Source of the DNA: a virus
Direction: 5' to 3' (one strand)
DNA length: 37,303 nt
IMG/VR virus record: IMGVR_UViG_3300020596_000065
Location: 1-37,303 of that record
The position numbers were made by a program, and so were the translations under genes. Position 1 is the first letter of the stretch; the number at the start of each line of letters is the position of its first letter. Below the pieces are notes generated by a model. The model searched no databases. It worked only from the letters and a program-made list of their open reading frames with translations, and was not told where the DNA came from. Positions 2,966 to 29,249 of the stretch are shown piece by piece.

Positions 2966-3550
2966 ATGCCAAATTACAAAGTAGGCGACATCCTCAAGCC
3001 AATCGATGGAAGCAAGTGTAATGAATACAGTAGCTTCGAAAGCTTCGAAGCGCCTGCTGCCATCAGAATTACCAAGATTACTTCAGACGGTGGATATGGA
3101 TATGACATCCTCGACAAAGAAGGAAATATCGTGAGCGTGTGTGACTATTGCTTCAAAGACGCAAATCTCACGCCTGCCACCAAAACCCTCAACACTCTCC
3201 AGGTCGGTGATTATATGAAAAGCAAAGACGGAGGTTACAAAAGATTGCTCGCTGTCCTCAATCGAAGTGCTGAAGATGCTTTTTGTATGTATGTGATGTC
3301 AACTTACGGCGAGAAGGATTCGGAAGATACGAGTATATCTGATGGCGCGTGGAACGTCCTTGAGCTTAAAAAATATGGCTACTCCATCGAAGACCCCACA
3401 CCTGAAGCCGAAAACACCGAAGCACAAATCGCGGCAGAGAAGCGCATCCTCCTCGAAGAACTCGCCGCCACAATCAGAAAATCAGAACTCGATGGTGAAG
3501 ATGTATCAGCTATCCTCTCGATGATTCAAGATTTGAAAAAACGAGTATGA
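2966..3550 (+). CDS. Hypothetical protein, 194 aa, first gene after a strong promoter
   Basis: The family is not recognised. The N-terminal half seems to hold two related beta-rich units, one starting KVGDILKPIDG (residues 5-15) and one VGDYMKSKDGG (about 80-90), each followed by a hydrophobic strand. The last 50 residues are a charged coiled-coil-like helix (AAEKRILLEELAATIRKSE). Its place as first gene behind a consensus promoter suggests early, abundant expression, as for takeover or anti-defence proteins, but no motif supports a specific role. Confidence 0.6.
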   Translation: MPNYKVGDILKPIDGSKCNEYSSFESFEAPAAIRITKITSDGGYGYDILDKEGNIVSVCDYCFKDANLTPATKTLNTLQVGDYMKSKDGGYKRLLAVLNRSAEDAFCMYVMSTYGEKDSEDTSISDGAWNVLELKKYGYSIEDPTPEAENTEAQIAAEKRILLEELAATIRKSELDGEDVSAILSMIQDLKKRV

Positions 3551-3993: not shown

Positions 3994-4194
3994 ATGGAAC
4001 ACCAAACTATCGGCTCACTAGGAATCCCCGTGTCTCACCGGCCTAAATGGCTGGCGTTACGGGGAGTACCTATTGTAGAGCCGGTATTCAACAGAGAAAT
4101 GGTTGGCTTTTACTATGGGTCGAGAGAGGAACAAGAGTGCGAATACTGCGACGAAAAAAGGATTGACCATAAAATCGCTTTTAACCCTAAATAA
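3994..4194 (+). CDS. Small protein with a CxxC pair, 66 aa
   Basis: The ATG is contiguous with the preceding TAA. A CEYC pair is present near residue 48, but no other Cys completes a zinc site. The last codons and stop (FNPK-TAA) are formed by the first copy of the repeated TAACCCTAAATAAAGAGT element, so the repeat supplies the gene's end. The function is unknown. Confidence 0.55.
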   Translation: MEHQTIGSLGIPVSHRPKWLALRGVPIVEPVFNREMVGFYYGSREEQECEYCDEKRIDHKIAFNPK

Positions 4195-4202
4195 AGAGTA
4201 TG
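4182..4202 (+). repeat. Inter-gene repeat, copy 1 (before rtcB)
   Basis: TAACCCTAAATAAAGAGT followed by ATG of rtcB. It is identical over 21 bp to copy 2 at 5371-5391, so rtcB is bracketed by a perfect direct repeat. Confidence 0.85.
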
Positions 4203-5345
4203 AAAAAGTATATACACGCAGAAAATATAGAAGCGGAAGCACTAGAGCAGTTTGAAGATTGCATGAAGCATGATTTTGTTATTGAAGGTGCTTTAATGCC
4301 AGATACGCACATGGGCTATGTTGCTCCTATTGGTTCTGTACTAAGGACAAAAGACGCAGTTGTGCCAGCTTGGGTTGGGTACGATATCGGTTGCGGAATG
4401 ATTGCGGTTTTAATTTCAGAAGAGTTAAGTGTGCAAAAGAGTATTAAAGATAAAGCAACTGAAATTTTTAATCAAGTGAATAGAGATGTTCCTATGGGGG
4501 CTGGTGTTTTCAATAAAAGAGTTGAAGATATACAACAAAGTACAATGACAAATATGGGAAAGGTGGTGGAGACGCTTAATTCAAAAGTAGAAAATGATGA
4601 ATTAAGAAATTATGTATTAAAAATTACTAGCCGAAACCTTGGAACATTAGGCTCTGGTAATCACTTTATAGAAATCCTTACACATAAAAGTGAGACATGG
4701 CTAGTTATTCATAGTGGCTCGCGTGGAGTCGGACACTTCATAGGTACTCACTTTATGAAATCAGCTTCTGGCAAAGAAAAGGGGTTTGAAGAGACACATA
4801 TTCTAATGGGTGGAGAAGTTGAAAGATATATGGCATACCAAAACTACTGTCTTGACTTTGCACTACTTAATCGTCTTGATATGGCGAAGAGAGTAGCTAA
4901 TGCGATTGAGAGAATAACGGGTTTTACTTTTAGTGTTGATGGTAACTTATGGACTAACAAAAACCATAACCACTGCGTACTAGAGGAAGATGGCACATAT
5001 ATTCATCGAAAAGGCGCTACAACGTCTAACAAAGGAGAAAGAGGTGTGATTCCAGCAAATATGAGAGACGGTTGTTTTCTTGTTATTGGAAAAGGGAATC
5101 CTGAATTTTTAAACAGCTCTTCTCATGGTGCTGGCAGATTGATGAGTCGCGGAAGAGCTAGAAAGGAGATTACTATGGAAACTTTTAAAGAGCAGATGGT
5201 TGGTATTGTTGCTCCTGTAGTCCAAAAAGTTATAGATGAAAGCCCTAGTGCTTACAAAAACATAGTTGAAGTTATGGAATGTCAAAAAGAAAGCGTAGAC
5301 ATAGTGAAGCATTTGAAGCCGATAATCAATTGGAAAGGATTTTAG
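4200..5345 (+). CDS. rtcB: RtcB-type RNA ligase
   Basis: 381 residues, close to the usual RtcB length of about 400. RtcB joins RNA 2',3'-cyclic phosphate or 3'-phosphate ends to 5'-OH ends using GTP and Mn2+, and repairs or splices tRNA. Visible signatures: YDIGCGM with metal-binding D62 and C65, LGSGNHFIE, HSGSRG, NHNHC, and SSHGAGR, whose H309 should be the guanylated histidine. All metal and catalytic residues I can place are present, so it is probably active. The gene looks AT-richer than its neighbour at 5541 and is flanked by perfect 21-bp repeats, which suggests acquisition as a unit. No RtcA or archease is nearby. A phage copy is most simply explained as repair of RNA cut by host anticodon nucleases. 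Confidence 0.95.
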   Translation: MKKYIHAENIEAEALEQFEDCMKHDFVIEGALMPDTHMGYVAPIGSVLRTKDAVVPAWVGYDIGCGMIAVLISEELSVQKSIKDKATEIFNQVNRDVPMGAGVFNKRVEDIQQSTMTNMGKVVETLNSKVENDELRNYVLKITSRNLGTLGSGNHFIEILTHKSETWLVIHSGSRGVGHFIGTHFMKSASGKEKGFEETHILMGGEVERYMAYQNYCLDFALLNRLDMAKRVANAIERITGFTFSVDGNLWTNKNHNHCVLEEDGTYIHRKGATTSNKGERGVIPANMRDGCFLVIGKGNPEFLNSSSHGAGRLMSRGRARKEITMETFKEQMVGIVAPVVQKVIDESPSAYKNIVEVMECQKESVDIVKHLKPIINWKGF

Positions 5346-5370
5346 ACGACCTCCTTTCCTCTCTCCAAGA

Positions 5371-5391
5371 TAACCCTAAATAAAGAGTATG
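5371..5391 (+). repeat. Inter-gene repeat, copy 2 (after rtcB)
   Basis: Identical to copy 1 through the following ATG. It forms the upstream region of the 45-residue gene at 5389. Confidence 0.85.
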
Positions 5392-5526
5392 AACGAAGAA
5401 CAAAACGAGTTGTATAGTGAGTTTATCAAGAAAGGGCTATCGGCAGGATTCACTGACGACCAGATAAACTTCATGTGGGAGTTCATAATGATGACCACGC
5501 TCTCAATGATACGGATGAATAAATAA
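5389..5526 (+). CDS. Mini-protein, 45 aa, unknown
   Basis: ATG 5389 comes from repeat copy 2, and the TAA at 5524-5526 is the beginning of copy 3, so the whole gene sits between two copies. The sequence starts MNEEQNELYSEFIKKG and ends in a Met-rich hydrophobic helix. No family is recognised. Confidence 0.55.
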   Translation: MNEEQNELYSEFIKKGLSAGFTDDQINFMWEFIMMTTLSMIRMNK

Positions 5527-5543
5527 CCCTAAATAAAGACATG
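5524..5543 (+). repeat. Inter-gene repeat, copy 3
   Basis: TAACCCTAAATAAAGAC then ATG. It differs from copies 1 and 2 only near the ATG, with one base changed and one missing. Confidence 0.8.
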
Positions 5544-5969
5544 CTACCAACGGCAACGGATGAATTGCATGACATGATGATACTCGCTCAAAAAGCGACA
5601 TCACTTTGTGATTCAATTCGGAAAGAGCTTAGGCTTCCGAGCAAGCTGAGACTTTTCGAGGCCCAGGTAGATACATTCAAGGATCGGGAACGGATATTCT
5701 TTCTTAGTGACGTGTGTGCCTTGCTACAAGAGTCCATGAATGTCGATGAGGTCAATCCGTTCATTGTCCCCTTCGGGTTCAGCCACTGGGCGAGGCGCGG
5801 TGCCAAGGTCGATGGGTACACCGTGGTTGTTCAGCTCTGTACCGTCGTCAGTCCTGTCAGAGAGCTGGAAGCGCTGGAGAAAAACAACTACCAGGTGAAA
5901 ATGATGGAAGAAAAGAAGGCTGGTACCTACGACGCTTTCACTTATAAGAAATATAAAGCCGGAGTTTAA
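5541..5969 (+). CDS. Hypothetical protein, 142 aa
   Basis: The family is not recognised. It is an alpha/beta-looking soluble protein with an Arg/Lys-rich N-terminal helix region, a central hydrophobic segment (VDEVNPFIVPFGFSHWARRG) and a Lys-rich C-terminus. It lies between repeat copies 3 and 4. Its codons look more GC-rich than rtcB just upstream, which supports separate origins. Confidence 0.55.
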   Translation: MLPTATDELHDMMILAQKATSLCDSIRKELRLPSKLRLFEAQVDTFKDRERIFFLSDVCALLQESMNVDEVNPFIVPFGFSHWARRGAKVDGYTVVVQLCTVVSPVRELEALEKNNYQVKMMEEKKAGTYDAFTYKKYKAGV

Positions 5970-5987
5970 CCCTAAATAAAAAGTATG
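5967..5987 (+). repeat. Inter-gene repeat, copy 4
   Basis: TAACCCTAAATAAAAAGT then ATG. It has one substitution from copy 1, and the TAA is the stop of the upstream gene. Looser relatives occur at about 6749-6764 and 6265-6292. Confidence 0.8.
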
Positions 5988-6287
5988 AATGAAAAAATAC
6001 TAGAGGAGTTTGATGAGAAGTTTGAAATACCAAAAAGCTGTCCAGATTTTCTGAGGAAACATTTATCAGAATTGCTTATGCACATCAGAGCCTTCCTCTC
6101 CGAGAAACTAGACCAAGCCAGAGCAGAAGAAAGGGAGAGGATGGGGGGGAAGATAAAATATATATTAGACTTTGCAGAAGACGACAAAGAAATGGCAGAT
6201 GACCCAGAAGACCCTAAAGTAAGAATAAATTATTTTAGAGATGAATTAAATCAAATCCTAGACAAACCCTTAACAGATAAAGAATAA
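5985..6287 (+). CDS. Coiled-coil-like hypothetical protein, 100 aa
   Basis: The protein is acidic and highly helical, with a long charged stretch (FLSEKLDQARAEERERMGG) likely to form a coiled coil. It has no catalytic motif. The start comes from repeat copy 4. The function is unknown. Confidence 0.55.
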   Translation: MNEKILEEFDEKFEIPKSCPDFLRKHLSELLMHIRAFLSEKLDQARAEERERMGGKIKYILDFAEDDKEMADDPEDPKVRINYFRDELNQILDKPLTDKE

Positions 6288-6291
6288 AGAT

Positions 6292-6447
6292 ATGGAAACG
6301 AATAAACACGCCAGGGCACTCGGCAAGAAGCGGTGGGAAGGGAAGACGAAAGAGGAGCGATCGGAGTATGGACAAATGATGGTCGCGGCGAGGAGGAAAA
6401 AGGCCAAGGAAAGGGAAGAAACCGGTTATTTGACTGACAAGCGGTAG
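6292..6447 (+). CDS. Small basic KRW/EERS-type protein, 51 aa
   Basis: ATG 6292 (context GAT-ATG) to TAG 6445-6447. The pattern HARALGKKRWEGKTKEERSEYG ... AARRKKAKE resembles the short basic proteins common in phage and bacterial genomes (AxxLGxxRW..T.EERS..), whose function is unproven but may involve nucleic acid binding. The -35 box of the next promoter lies inside its last codons. Confidence 0.55.
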   Translation: METNKHARALGKKRWEGKTKEERSEYGQMMVAARRKKAKEREETGYLTDKR

Positions 6448-6458
6448 TATGCTATACT
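6430..6458 (+). promoter_or_regulatory. Sigma70 promoter with extended -10, sister of the one at 2908
   Basis: TTGACT (6430-6435), 17 bp, then TATACT (6453-6458) preceded by TGC. The spacer GACAAGCGGTAGTATGC closely matches the spacer of the 2908 promoter. It drives the recombination operon after a leader of about 90 nt. Confidence 0.85.
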
Positions 6459-6505
6459 TAGGCCACGGTCAAGAAAGGTAGTAGCCCAAGATATACTTTA
6501 GGCCA
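6453..6505 (+). repeat. Duplicated -10 region in the leader
   Basis: TATACTTAGGCCA at 6453-6465 recurs as TATACTTTAGGCCA at 6492-6505. GGTAGTA occurs upstream of both. The second copy lacks a good -35. It could be a decayed tandem promoter or a repeated operator. Confidence 0.55.
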
Positions 6506-6556
6506 GACACCGATCGACACCAAGTAATCCGCGTTCTCCTAGTATCATAAAACCTT

Positions 6557-6754
6557 ATGCAGGTGACAACACAAGAAGTCGAGGCAGCCGTAACAGCTAA
6601 TAATCTCTACGTTTGGCGGAATTTCACCATCGAGGAGGCAGAGAACGCGGTGCCAGCACAACCGTTCGCGGATGCTCTCAGGGGCAAGAAAGAGAAGGAA
6701 TCTGCCTATTGGGATCACTACGACTCGGAAGAATCTCGAGCTACCGGTAACTAA
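6557..6754 (+). CDS. Hypothetical protein, 65 aa
   Basis: A short acidic soluble protein with aromatic residues (NLYVWRNFTIEEAENAV, YWDHYDSEE). It is the first gene after the promoter at 6430. A degenerate relative of the inter-gene repeat (TAACTAAATAAACAG) forms its stop. The family is not recognised. Confidence 0.5.
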   Translation: MQVTTQEVEAAVTANNLYVWRNFTIEEAENAVPAQPFADALRGKKEKESAYWDHYDSEESRATGN

Positions 6755-6787
6755 ATAAACAGGGTAGGTGGGTGAACTATCAACCCT

Positions 6788-7447: not shown

Positions 7448-7974
7448 CCGAACCAGAAACCATGCCAGAAACCATCTATCAAGCACTCGCCAAAGTACAG
7501 GCAGAAATGCCCGTAATCGGCAGGAACAAGACCGCCAACGTAGGAAAGTTCAGCTACTCATACGCTGATCTAGAAAAGATATGGGAGATTGCCCGGCCCA
7601 TTATCGAAAAGCATGGGTTTACTGTCTACAACTGTGGAGACGGCGACAAAGTAGTGACCGTTGTCGTCCACACATCCGGCGAAAAGCTCCTAAGCGCAAT
7701 GAACATTTCGCAGGTTGACCCTCAGAAGAAGGGCGGTGAGGTGACGTACTATCGCCGCTATAATCTCTGTATGCTCTTCAACATCATCGTGGCCGAAGAA
7801 GACAAAGATGCGGTGGGAACGGGGGAGGTAAACGAAGAGAAGCTCGCCATGATCGAAGGAGTACTAAGCCTCCTCAATACGGTCGAAGAGCTCTCAAACT
7901 ACCATAAGCAGCTGGGCACACCGAAAGATAAGGCCACCCTCGCCCTCTTTACCGCACGAAAGAAAACTCTATGA
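7444..7974 (+). CDS. ERF-family single-strand DNA annealing protein
   Basis: 176 residues. The ERF core is recognisable: YSYADLEKIWEIARPIIEKHGF (about 38-59), then the Gly-rich strand region, then GGEVTYYRRYNLCMLFNII with the EEDKDA acidic end. ERF proteins such as P22 Erf anneal complementary single strands during phage recombination and genome circularisation. It is followed by its usual partner, a YqaJ/lambda-type exonuclease, with overlapping stop and start. Confidence 0.9.
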   Translation: MTEPETMPETIYQALAKVQAEMPVIGRNKTANVGKFSYSYADLEKIWEIARPIIEKHGFTVYNCGDGDKVVTVVVHTSGEKLLSAMNISQVDPQKKGGEVTYYRRYNLCMLFNIIVAEEDKDAVGTGEVNEEKLAMIEGVLSLLNTVEELSNYHKQLGTPKDKATLALFTARKKTL

Positions 7975-8555
7975 ACATCCACCAAGTAGAGCAGGGGACG
8001 AAGGAATGGCTCGACCTCAAAAAGGGACGAGTCACGGGAACCCGTCTCAAGGAAGTGATGGGACGAAGCCCAAAGAAGCTCATGTACGAGATGATCGCGG
8101 AGAAATACGACTCGACACCGGGCTATCAAACGAGTGCCATGTCGGAAGGAACGCTCAAGGAACCGTGGGCGGTAGACCAGTACCAAGAAGAAACCGGCCA
8201 GACCGTCAAAGAAATTGGGTTTATCTCGAACGGCCCAGACATCGGCCTTTCACCTGACGGGATGGTCGGGAAGCGGAAGGCAATCGAAGTGAAGTGTCCA
8301 TCCCTTCCCAAACACATCGAGTACATCGTAAACGGCATCCCAAGCGAATATCTCTGGCAGATCGTCCATTACTTTGTCGTCATCGAAGACCTGGAGGAAC
8401 TCGACTTTGTGAGCTACCACCCGAACTTCCCGATCAAAGAACTGCACATTGTGAACATCAAGCGCGAAGCATTGGCCGAAAAGATACTCGAAGCGAAGAC
8501 CAAGCTCGAAACATTCCTCAAAGAATATAACCAACTCAACGCTCAACTTTTTTAA
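7971..8555 (+). CDS. YqaJ / lambda-exonuclease-type recombination nuclease
   Basis: 194 residues. PD-(D/E)XK signatures: E64 in GTLKEP, D96 in SPDG, E106 and K108 in EVKCP, and Q130 in WQIVHY. These enzymes digest one strand from double-strand ends and make 3' single strands for the annealing protein encoded just upstream. Length and motif order match the family. Confidence 0.92.
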   Translation: MNIHQVEQGTKEWLDLKKGRVTGTRLKEVMGRSPKKLMYEMIAEKYDSTPGYQTSAMSEGTLKEPWAVDQYQEETGQTVKEIGFISNGPDIGLSPDGMVGKRKAIEVKCPSLPKHIEYIVNGIPSEYLWQIVHYFVVIEDLEELDFVSYHPNFPIKELHIVNIKREALAEKILEAKTKLETFLKEYNQLNAQLF

Positions 8556-26741: not shown

Positions 26742-29249
26742 ATGACACCACAAGAAATCGGTCGACAAGTCAAGGCGAAATACCCTCAGTACCAGAATAT
26801 GAGCGATGAAGAGCTGGGGAATAGGACTTTGCAGAAATATCCTCAATACGACCCAAGTGCAAAGAAACTCGATAGGAAAGAAATGCTTTCTCTGCGTGTT
26901 AAAAATTCTCAGTCGGCTCTTAATAATGCAAGAGTCGAAGAGGCAAGAGCGAAAGAAGAATCTGGTTTTACTAATACCATAGTTCGATTAGTTAGTGGGC
27001 AGAAACCCGTCGATGTCTTTGCTCGTGCAGGAGGAAGGGCAATGTCTTCACCGGAAGAACGAAAATTCATACCAAAGCCTACTCGTGGTGAAATGGCAGG
27101 GGCCATAGGGCAGACTGCTCTTCTCGCTTATCCTGGGGCTACAGCAGCAAAGGTTCTAGGAAAGGCTGGCTCATTTCTTGGGGCTGGAGTTGGTTATGAT
27201 GTAACTGAGAACTTATTGGATGGTAAAACAGGGGCAAGCGTCTTAACGCCTGGGTTTGGAACGGCTATTGGTTCAATCCCAATAGCGGGAAAAGCGCTTG
27301 GTGCAGCAAAAAACAAGGTACAAAAAATCGCCGCTGATCAAGCGCCGAGAATTATAAACTCTATTATAAAACCACTACAGAAGGACTTTTCTTACGGTAA
27401 GAATCCGGGGAGAGCTGTCGCTGGGATGAAAGCTAATTCCTTTGAAGAGCTTATCACTAAAATTAGCGAAGGTCGCCAAAAAGCTGGTCAAGAAATTGGA
27501 TTCCTAGGAGATAGACTAGAAGGAAAAGTAGTATTGAACCTGCGAGAATCATTGAAACCTATTAATGATGCAATGGATGTTGCTGCAAAGCAGAACAACC
27601 AGACTCTACTCCAAAGATTGAATTCTGTCAAGCAATCAATTACTGAAAACCTTCAGAAGGGCTTAGACGAGGCTGGAAATCCAACCATCATCTCTGCTGG
27701 CGCAAGAAACCTCGATCAAGCATCTTTCAAGGAAGCTAGGGAAATAATGCGTTCAATCGGAGACGTAACGCAGTTTACTGGCAATCCATCAGACGACAAA
27801 CTTGTGAACTCTGCCTTGAAACGTGTTTATGGTAAAGCAAAAGAAATTACCATAAGAGGAGCAGAAATGGCTGATCCTAATGTTGCGGCTCAATTTAGAA
27901 AGGCAACGGAAAGGTATGCTGACCTCACCTCTGCTGAAATCGCTGCTAAGTATCGAGACAAGATAATGGAGCGTCAGAATCTTATTAGTTTCGGACAGAC
28001 GACTGTTGGCCTCGGTGGAGCCTTGGCGACCGCTATCGCAACCGGTGGAGCGGCAGTCCCTACTATTATCGCTGGTATGGGGGCAGCTGGACTACAAAAA
28101 GCTCTCGGATCAACGGCAGTTAAGACCAGACTAGCCTCTTGGCTTTCTAAACTTCCAAAAAAAGAGGCAAGGACTATGCTTGACCGCTTTCCAAAGCTTG
28201 AAGTTTTGTTCAAAACTCGAACTCCTGGGGACATTCTCCTCGACACACCTTTTGGGAAAAAGCTGAAAGAAGGCGTTCAAAACATGAAAGGCAAAGGTGG
28301 CCTCTCTATTCAAGATGTCTCAAAAATGACGCCAGAGGAACTGAAGAGAGCTGGTCTAGGCTCTCTCCCAAAAGCAGGCAGTGCCAAAGAAGCTGTTACT
28401 AAAGAACAGTCATTTGATGAGTTTGTGAAGGCACATGGAACACCTTTGTATCATGGGACTGGTGAAGGTGTGAACTTTGAAAAGTTTGATTCTTCGTTGG
28501 CACAAAAGGGTAATAGGGGGAAACAGATATACCTAACAGAGAGCAGAGTGGCAGCAGACTGGTTTAGCCAGCTGAAATCACAGACAAATTTCATGAAGAC
28601 CGACGAGTTCAGAAACGGAACTGCGCCAGGGTCAATTGGCGACTTCGTTCCAAACACAAAAGAGTTTGTGGTTCTCAATGGGGCAAAAATAAAAGTGCTT
28701 AAAAGCCTTCCTCAGCAGAGTGCTGAATCGGTAATTGCTAACCTGAAAAATGAGGGGTATGATGGAGTGCGTTTCACTGATGATGTTCTTGATACGATTG
28801 AAGGTCAGACCGGCTTAGACAAGGCGTTTATTAACGGAAAACATCCAGACACAACTCTTATTTTCAACCAAAGTATTCTCAAAACCTCCTCCCAACTCCG
28901 TGCAGAGTATCAGGCAGCGAAAGGAGCAGGGAAGACTACCAATCAAAAGATAGGCTCTCTCCTCAGCGGTAAAAAACCATCTGAACTCGATGGGATCAAG
29001 ACGGCTGTCGGAAACATCTTCGAGAAAGGAACAAAGAAAGTAAAGAGAGGCATTCTCAATGAAATGGCCGACTTCACTGACTATGCAGCAAAGCAGAAAA
29101 CGGCTACGACAAAGACGCTTGTTGCTGAAGAGATTAGAGCTAGAGAAATAGCTAAAAAACTTGGGTGGAGTCCTGAAATGACCAACTGGAATCTTGCTAA
29201 ACGATTTGGGGCGCTACTCCAAAAGAATAACTGGCAACCTAAGAAATAG
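26742..29249 (+). CDS. Large internal virion protein with ADP-ribosyltransferase-like domain
   Basis: 835 residues. The N-terminal motif GRQVKAKYPQYQNMSDEELG is common in ejected virion proteins. Two Gly/Ala-rich hydrophobic segments (about 115-170 and 415-455, e.g. GLGGALATAIATGGAAVPT) could insert in the host membrane. Residues about 565-715 look like an ADP-ribosyltransferase of the polyvalent-protein type: LYHGTGEG (H571), GKQIYLTESRVAADWF (Y597), EGYDGVRF, and the closing strand TTLIFNQSILK. The Glu usually expected before that strand is not evident (DTT at 703-705), so activity is uncertain. Injected transferases such as T4 Alt give a precedent. Confidence 0.7.
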   Translation: MTPQEIGRQVKAKYPQYQNMSDEELGNRTLQKYPQYDPSAKKLDRKEMLSLRVKNSQSALNNARVEEARAKEESGFTNTIVRLVSGQKPVDVFARAGGRAMSSPEERKFIPKPTRGEMAGAIGQTALLAYPGATAAKVLGKAGSFLGAGVGYDVTENLLDGKTGASVLTPGFGTAIGSIPIAGKALGAAKNKVQKIAADQAPRIINSIIKPLQKDFSYGKNPGRAVAGMKANSFEELITKISEGRQKAGQEIGFLGDRLEGKVVLNLRESLKPINDAMDVAAKQNNQTLLQRLNSVKQSITENLQKGLDEAGNPTIISAGARNLDQASFKEAREIMRSIGDVTQFTGNPSDDKLVNSALKRVYGKAKEITIRGAEMADPNVAAQFRKATERYADLTSAEIAAKYRDKIMERQNLISFGQTTVGLGGALATAIATGGAAVPTIIAGMGAAGLQKALGSTAVKTRLASWLSKLPKKEARTMLDRFPKLEVLFKTRTPGDILLDTPFGKKLKEGVQNMKGKGGLSIQDVSKMTPEELKRAGLGSLPKAGSAKEAVTKEQSFDEFVKAHGTPLYHGTGEGVNFEKFDSSLAQKGNRGKQIYLTESRVAADWFSQLKSQTNFMKTDEFRNGTAPGSIGDFVPNTKEFVVLNGAKIKVLKSLPQQSAESVIANLKNEGYDGVRFTDDVLDTIEGQTGLDKAFINGKHPDTTLIFNQSILKTSSQLRAEYQAAKGAGKTTNQKIGSLLSGKKPSELDGIKTAVGNIFEKGTKKVKRGILNEMADFTDYAAKQKTATTKTLVAEEIRAREIAKKLGWSPEMTNWNLAKRFGALLQKNNWQPKK

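Follow-up and report, generated by a model that had tools for sequence, protein, structure and literature searches.

Short repeats at successive gene junctions of an uncultured phage genome and their possible part in accessory-gene exchange

The known kinds of system closest to the repeat array reported here are the PeSL-mediated shuffling of T4-type phages, the boundary sequences of lambdoid phages and the Start-Associated Sequences (SAS). Lambdoid boundary sequences vary from border to border. They are short conserved sequences at gene borders which act as sites of homologous recombination (PMC3029335). In the passages of PMC4503421 that treat them, citing Arbiol 2010 and Comeau 2014, the PeSL of T4-type phages are described as a repeated short intergenic promoter with a stem-loop, located between small accessory genes and serving as shuffling sites. 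SAS are short conserved sequences found just before the starts of non-structural genes in Cluster K mycobacteriophages (PMC3203893) and Cluster EF Microbacterium phages (PMC7302621). Integron cassettes also form arrays, in which a repeated site stands between genes that are unrelated.

The window, that is the whole stretch of DNA analysed, is an entire viral record of 37.3 kb. It encodes TerS, TerL, portal and head proteins, ERF, YqaJ, a glycosyltransferase and a C5-methylase. The best GenBank matches of TerL were an uncultured Caudoviricetes phage and a TM7 (Saccharibacteria) phage, with 45-46% identity, and the TM7 phage among these matches makes a Patescibacteria host likely. The C5 cytosine methylase was found in two overlapping frames at 925-2642 (ORFs 925-2250 and 2055-2642), each corresponding to a different part of PF00145, which may be a frameshift, a sequencing error or a programmed shift.

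A scan of the window with up to three mismatches allowed found TAACCCTAAATAAAGAGT at 4182, 5371, 5524 and 5967 compared with 0.03 matches expected (mean of shuffled sequence). These are exactly the positions at which the preliminary description had placed four near-identical copies, each abutting an ATG. The copies at 4182 and 5371 had no mismatches to TAACCCTAAATAAAGAGT, the copy at 5524 had two and the copy at 5967 one. In the whole viral record the pattern TAACCCTAAATAAA occurred exactly four times, consecutively within 1.8 kb and with no reverse copies, and the backwards control pattern gave 0 matches. The features of the array and its surroundings are as follows.

3994-4194, + strand: 66-aa ORF before the array, with its stop TAA (4192-4194) within copy 1
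4182-4199, + strand: junction repeat copy 1, TAACCCTAAATAAAGAGT, adjoining the ATG of rtcB; 23 bp identical to copy 2
4200-5345, + strand: rtcB-type RNA ligase gene, 381 aa (PF01139, PHROG 1075), GC 37.7%
5371-5388, + strand: junction repeat copy 2, adjoining the ATG of the 45-aa gene
5389-5526, + strand: 45-aa gene, GC 39.1%, with its stop TAA as the start of copy 3
5524-5541, + strand: junction repeat copy 3, TAACCCTAAATAAAGAC and then ATG
5541-5969, + strand: 142-aa gene, GC 48.3%, with its stop TAA as the start of copy 4
5967-5984, + strand: junction repeat copy 4, TAACCCTAAATAAAAAGT, adjoining the ATG of the 100-aa gene
5985-6287, + strand: 100-aa gene behind the last full copy, GC 36.0%
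6749-6763, + strand: probable degenerate copy, TAACTAAATAAACAG, at the end of ORF 6557-6754, with no ATG directly after; contains the fifth and last TAAATAAA
7444-7974, + strand: ERF-type single-strand annealing protein, candidate recombinase (PF04404, E 5e-15)
7971-8555, + strand: YqaJ-type exonuclease, probable partner of ERF (PF09588, E 5e-21)

The gap between repeat and start codon was 0 nt in all four copies, with the ATGs of the next genes at 4200, 5389, 5541 and 5985. Copy 3 is one base shorter at its 3' end and its 18-bp match therefore takes in the A of the ATG. The repeat had been described as supplying the stop of one gene and the start of the next. This held for the start in every copy, but the stop of the upstream gene opens the repeat in copies 3 and 4 only. 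In copy 1 the TAA inside the repeat terminates the upstream 66-codon ORF, and the stop of rtcB (5343-5345) lies 25 bp 5' of copy 2, which is thus not a stop supplier. Stop codons are present in two of the three frames of the repeat. The copies flanking rtcB are identical as had been stated, over 23 bp instead of 21 bp, and all other pairs of copies over 14-17 bp. Among the looser copies previously noted, the one near 6749 is probably a true copy that has decayed, since all five occurrences of the octamer TAAATAAA in the 37.3 kb are confined to 4188-6759 and to the + strand; the one near 6265 looks like an ordinary A-rich gene start. Base composition does differ between the units (GC contents above; window 45.8%).

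Like PeSL, the window repeat is a short repeat between small accessory genes, a setting in which PMC4503421 describes gene shuffling among related phages. PeSL in that account consist of promoter and stem-loop, whereas the window repeat has neither and combines stop codons with a start context. Readings of the window repeat as a promoter, terminator, hairpin or tRNA were not supported; no promoter-like or terminator-like site coincided with the repeats, and no stem or stable fold was found in them. The lambdoid boundary sequences are likewise short and conserved at gene borders, but in the window one sequence serves several successive borders, which would make single genes interchangeable.

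The four copies enclose three genes, namely rtcB and those of 45 aa and 142 aa. The rtcB product matched PF01139 with an E value of 4.7e-75 and PHROG 1075 with 2e-103. A relative with 85% identity was found in two near-identical viral contigs (L079, L080). DNA similarity to this contig spans 4194-5344, i.e. the gene itself, and ends at the gene ends, and no other window protein matched there at E ≤ 1e-3. By this comparison rtcB is clearly mobile as a single gene between unrelated phages. The contig of the 85% relative is without the window repeat, which suggests that the repeat is a property of this phage and not of rtcB. Comparison of RtcB with bacterial and archaeal genomes gave only archaeal matches (51-54%) and no information on the host. 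The 45-aa gene had no match in Pfam or PHROG. For the 142-aa gene, no relative was found among viral contigs or GenBank phages and no Pfam family scored above the cut-off.

An exact-motif scan of IMG/VR for the window repeat gave 74 single matches, which by our estimate is about the chance number for a 16-mer. No public viral contig in IMG/VR had an array of the exact window repeat. Searches with ERF, the 142-aa protein and the major head protein found no relatives, and the TerL search produced 80 related loci. Repeat enrichment was assessed in 40-nt windows upstream of starts in 82 related contigs against eight control windows. Exact repeats of at least 14 bp between upstream windows amounted to 23 pairs in 8 of the 82 contigs (0-2 in controls), and those of at least 16 bp to 10 pairs in five contigs (0-1 in controls). 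L111 was rejected as a third repeat case, as its two-copy repeat is the common 3' end of two adjacent methylase genes. At 1050-1846 of this contig, the adjacent DNA methylase genes are identical over at least 40 bp at their 3' ends, and this identity extends into the next ATG, so that a repeat-gene-repeat unit arises through coding homology. In L152, the degenerate sequences GTTAAAAGTT / GTTAGAAGTT lie upstream of at least seven starts (6551, 7047, 7702, 8194, 8868, 9126 and 16311) and are a further, looser start-associated repeat. The terminase relative L128 has TTTTTCAAAATGCTATA three times, at 3364, 5078 and 13041, possibly a phage promoter.

The strongest case of enrichment besides the window was L099 (TerL identity 59%). 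This contig has a repeat of its own, TAGTAAATTAACTTAGTAA, at 4925, 5900, 8291 and 8551, all of them stop-to-start borders as in the window, and an N6/N4 DNA methylase is enclosed by two of the copies. TAGTAAATTAACTTAGTAA was present in seven contigs, most with two to six copies; the background count in 900 kb from other TerL relatives was 0. A wider scan added no multi-copy contigs, and most of its extra single matches were in one conserved context with no start codon after the repeat. The TAGTAAATTAACTTAGTAA contigs form at least two groups whose cores are unrelated. G006 and G007 have TerL and TerS in common with the window, and G007 also ERF; in G001-G003 no gene in common with the window was detected. 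Two small accessory genes of G005 are shared with G007 and one with the G002 group. TAGTAAATTAACTTAGTAA has stops in all three frames, and genes that reach it end at its first codon or a few codons in (e.g. ...NSKLT-stop). Stretches resembling the halves of a tRNA-Leu, 100-200 bp apart, were observed in L176 (18220-18487), L184 (7895-8110 and 9206-9340) and L174 (about 5990-6080). In several arrays such stretches end in CACCA or similar directly 5' of TAGTAAATTAACTTAGTAA; no tRNA was identified in them by ARAGORN (default settings) or Rfam. It was also observed that an RNA ligase gene lies within both repeat families and belongs to a different protein family in each, RtcB (PF01139) at 4200-5345 of the window and RNA_ligase (PF09414) at 26804-27463 of G002 (L174:6804-7463). 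The enclosed RNA ligases perhaps perform RNA repair that counters host nucleases.

Comparison of G002 (43.7 kb) with G003/G001 showed 31,385 matching bases and one mismatch, at the left repeat edge. The left arm of G002 equals G003 over 17,830 bases, with the single mismatch at the TAGTAAATTAACTTAGTAA edge, and the right arm equals G001 over 13,555 bases with 0 mismatches. The sole other difference is one block, of 1,086 bp in G002 (X) and 663 bp in G003/G001 (Y). Block X contains the RNA ligase gene, a further TAGTAAATTAACTTAGTAA copy and a 130-aa gene, and block Y a 132-aa gene, a small ORF and a tRNA-like stretch. The left edge of the block is right behind a TAGTAAATTAACTTAGTAA copy at the start codon, and the right edge is inside another TAGTAAATTAACTTAGTAA copy. 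Homology at the exact edges of the exchanged segment is therefore present in this comparison, within the sister family only. The variation of gene content between repeats among related phages, as with PeSL, was also seen in this family. The block replacement gives direct comparative evidence that cassettes are exchanged, within the sister repeat family rather than in the window, and it is recent, the exchange having been caught very soon after the event.

The cassette system proposed in the preliminary description is thus borne out in the sister family, where different genes lie between the same repeats (G002 and G003/G001), but not for the window repeat itself. Exchange at the window is argued by analogy, because no relative with an array of the window repeat was present in IMG/VR, and the window array may have arisen by the same exchange route. 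Overall, the repeats are probably gene-junction adaptors that double as homology patches for accessory-gene exchange, a reading to which we give a probability of roughly 60%. Each copy would combine stop codons and a short spacer with an optimal start site of the non-Shine-Dalgarno type, and a gene placed between two copies would be properly terminated and followed by re-initiation. The same sequence on either side of a gene would form a short homology patch for phages that share the junction sequence, at which homologous recombination or single-strand annealing could add, remove or replace one or a few accessory genes.

The ERF-type protein is a candidate for the acting recombinase. The genes of ERF and YqaJ lie 2-3 kb downstream of the window array. 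Minimal pairing lengths of 31-34 bp for RecA and 23-27 bp for Red-beta have been reported, and an Erf/exonuclease pair matched Red in efficiency (PMC3945230). The longest identity in the window, the 23 bp flanking rtcB, is at the lower edge of the Red-beta range and below that of RecA. The suggested ERF/YqaJ annealing pathway agrees with the position of these genes near the window array and with the ERF of G007. It is not established, however, since G002, the record showing the swap, has no recognisable ERF or RecT (ERF absent by Pfam).

The repeat could also be a Start-Associated Sequence, i.e. a phage-specific leader before co-regulated genes that is under selection for translation (or regulator binding) and has no role in exchange. 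Conserved start repeats are known from the Cluster K mycobacteriophages and Microbacterium phages, some SAS include the upstream stop, and every window copy adjoins an ATG. The start consensus of the window is T at -1 (86% of 51 starts), A at -3 (61%) and A at -6 (65%). No more than 8 of 55 starts were SD-like, and the window is thus non-Shine-Dalgarno; this preference for T right before ATG, with hardly any Shine-Dalgarno sequence, is unusual and may reflect the host. The 3' half of the repeat (AAATAAAGAGT) agrees with this consensus, so the repeat is also likely to have a role in translation. To this extent the alternative of a translation-start module, raised in the preliminary description, has support, but the 5' part TAACCC does not fit the start consensus. 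SAS also differ in having a Shine-Dalgarno core, whereas the window repeat has neither this core nor the SAS consensus. SAS are dispersed, but the window copies follow one another within 1.8 kb, flank each gene on both sides and are missing from the remaining approximately 50 gene starts of the record. In TM4 the ten SAS copies that were checked are scattered across 21 kb, accompany single genes and stop several nt short of the ATG. Finally, the edges of the sister repeats are edges of gene replacement, which selection on expression alone does not predict. A start-associated leader with no exchange role is therefore considered unlikely; a translation role and an exchange role of the repeat are compatible and not mutually exclusive.

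If the swap between sister phages were an assembly artefact at a short repeat, the cassette reading would have no direct support. All records are metagenome assemblies, the breakpoints are within repeats and block X is present in one record only (G002). In addition, G004 changes to another phage type at a repeat. This record (L180 1686-5698) equals G003 up to TAGTAAATTAACTTAGTAA and continues as a phage that encodes MetK and a terminase. The first gene of G004 past the repeat is paralogous (84%) to one located two repeats upstream. G004 is possibly a recombinant or a misassembly and was hence kept out of the exchange evidence. Against an artefact, G002 returns to 100% identity on the far side of the block for all 13,555 bases, block Y is agreed by three separate records (G001, G003 and the left part of G004), and at its right junction X has a separate, diverged TAGTAAATTAACTTAGTAA copy that retains only the last 13 of the 19 repeat bases intact. 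Misassembly of the swap is thus improbable.

Local duplication, in which tandem copying of a single gene start was followed by replacement or divergence of the genes behind it, would leave the repeats as passive traces. The copies are indeed all adjacent, and the 45-aa and 100-aa genes have 75% identity over 51 nt from the repeat into the coding sequence. The enclosed genes, however, have no recognisable common origin and neighbours differ by up to 12 GC points, rtcB has a close relative in an unrelated phage, and real exchange is found in the sister repeat family, which together make duplication decidedly improbable as the explanation. A dedicated site-specific, integron-like cassette system with the repeat as recombinase site would account for repeat-gene-repeat units of variable content, but it is very improbable, as neither a tyrosine integrase (PF00589) nor a serine resolvase (PF00239) was found in the window or in six sister-repeat records, the repeats have no stem or attC-like folding, and the site is a stop/start junction and not a hairpin.

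How single genes enter and leave at precise phage gene borders is a long-standing question, and most mosaic joints, to our knowledge, have no visible homology. If the repeats are junction adaptors as proposed, one short sequence, reused at successive borders, would be both translational punctuation and homology. Tentatively, this might extend to a general plug-in system, in which every lineage of phages or hosts would have a frame-tolerant stop-plus-start junction of its own, reused at successive borders and shared by phages whose cores are unrelated. Single genes, for instance those of RNA ligases and methylases, could then be gained, lost or replaced with their neighbours undisturbed. The enclosure of RNA ligases in both repeat families is a hint that the functions carried by such arrays may change with host defences.
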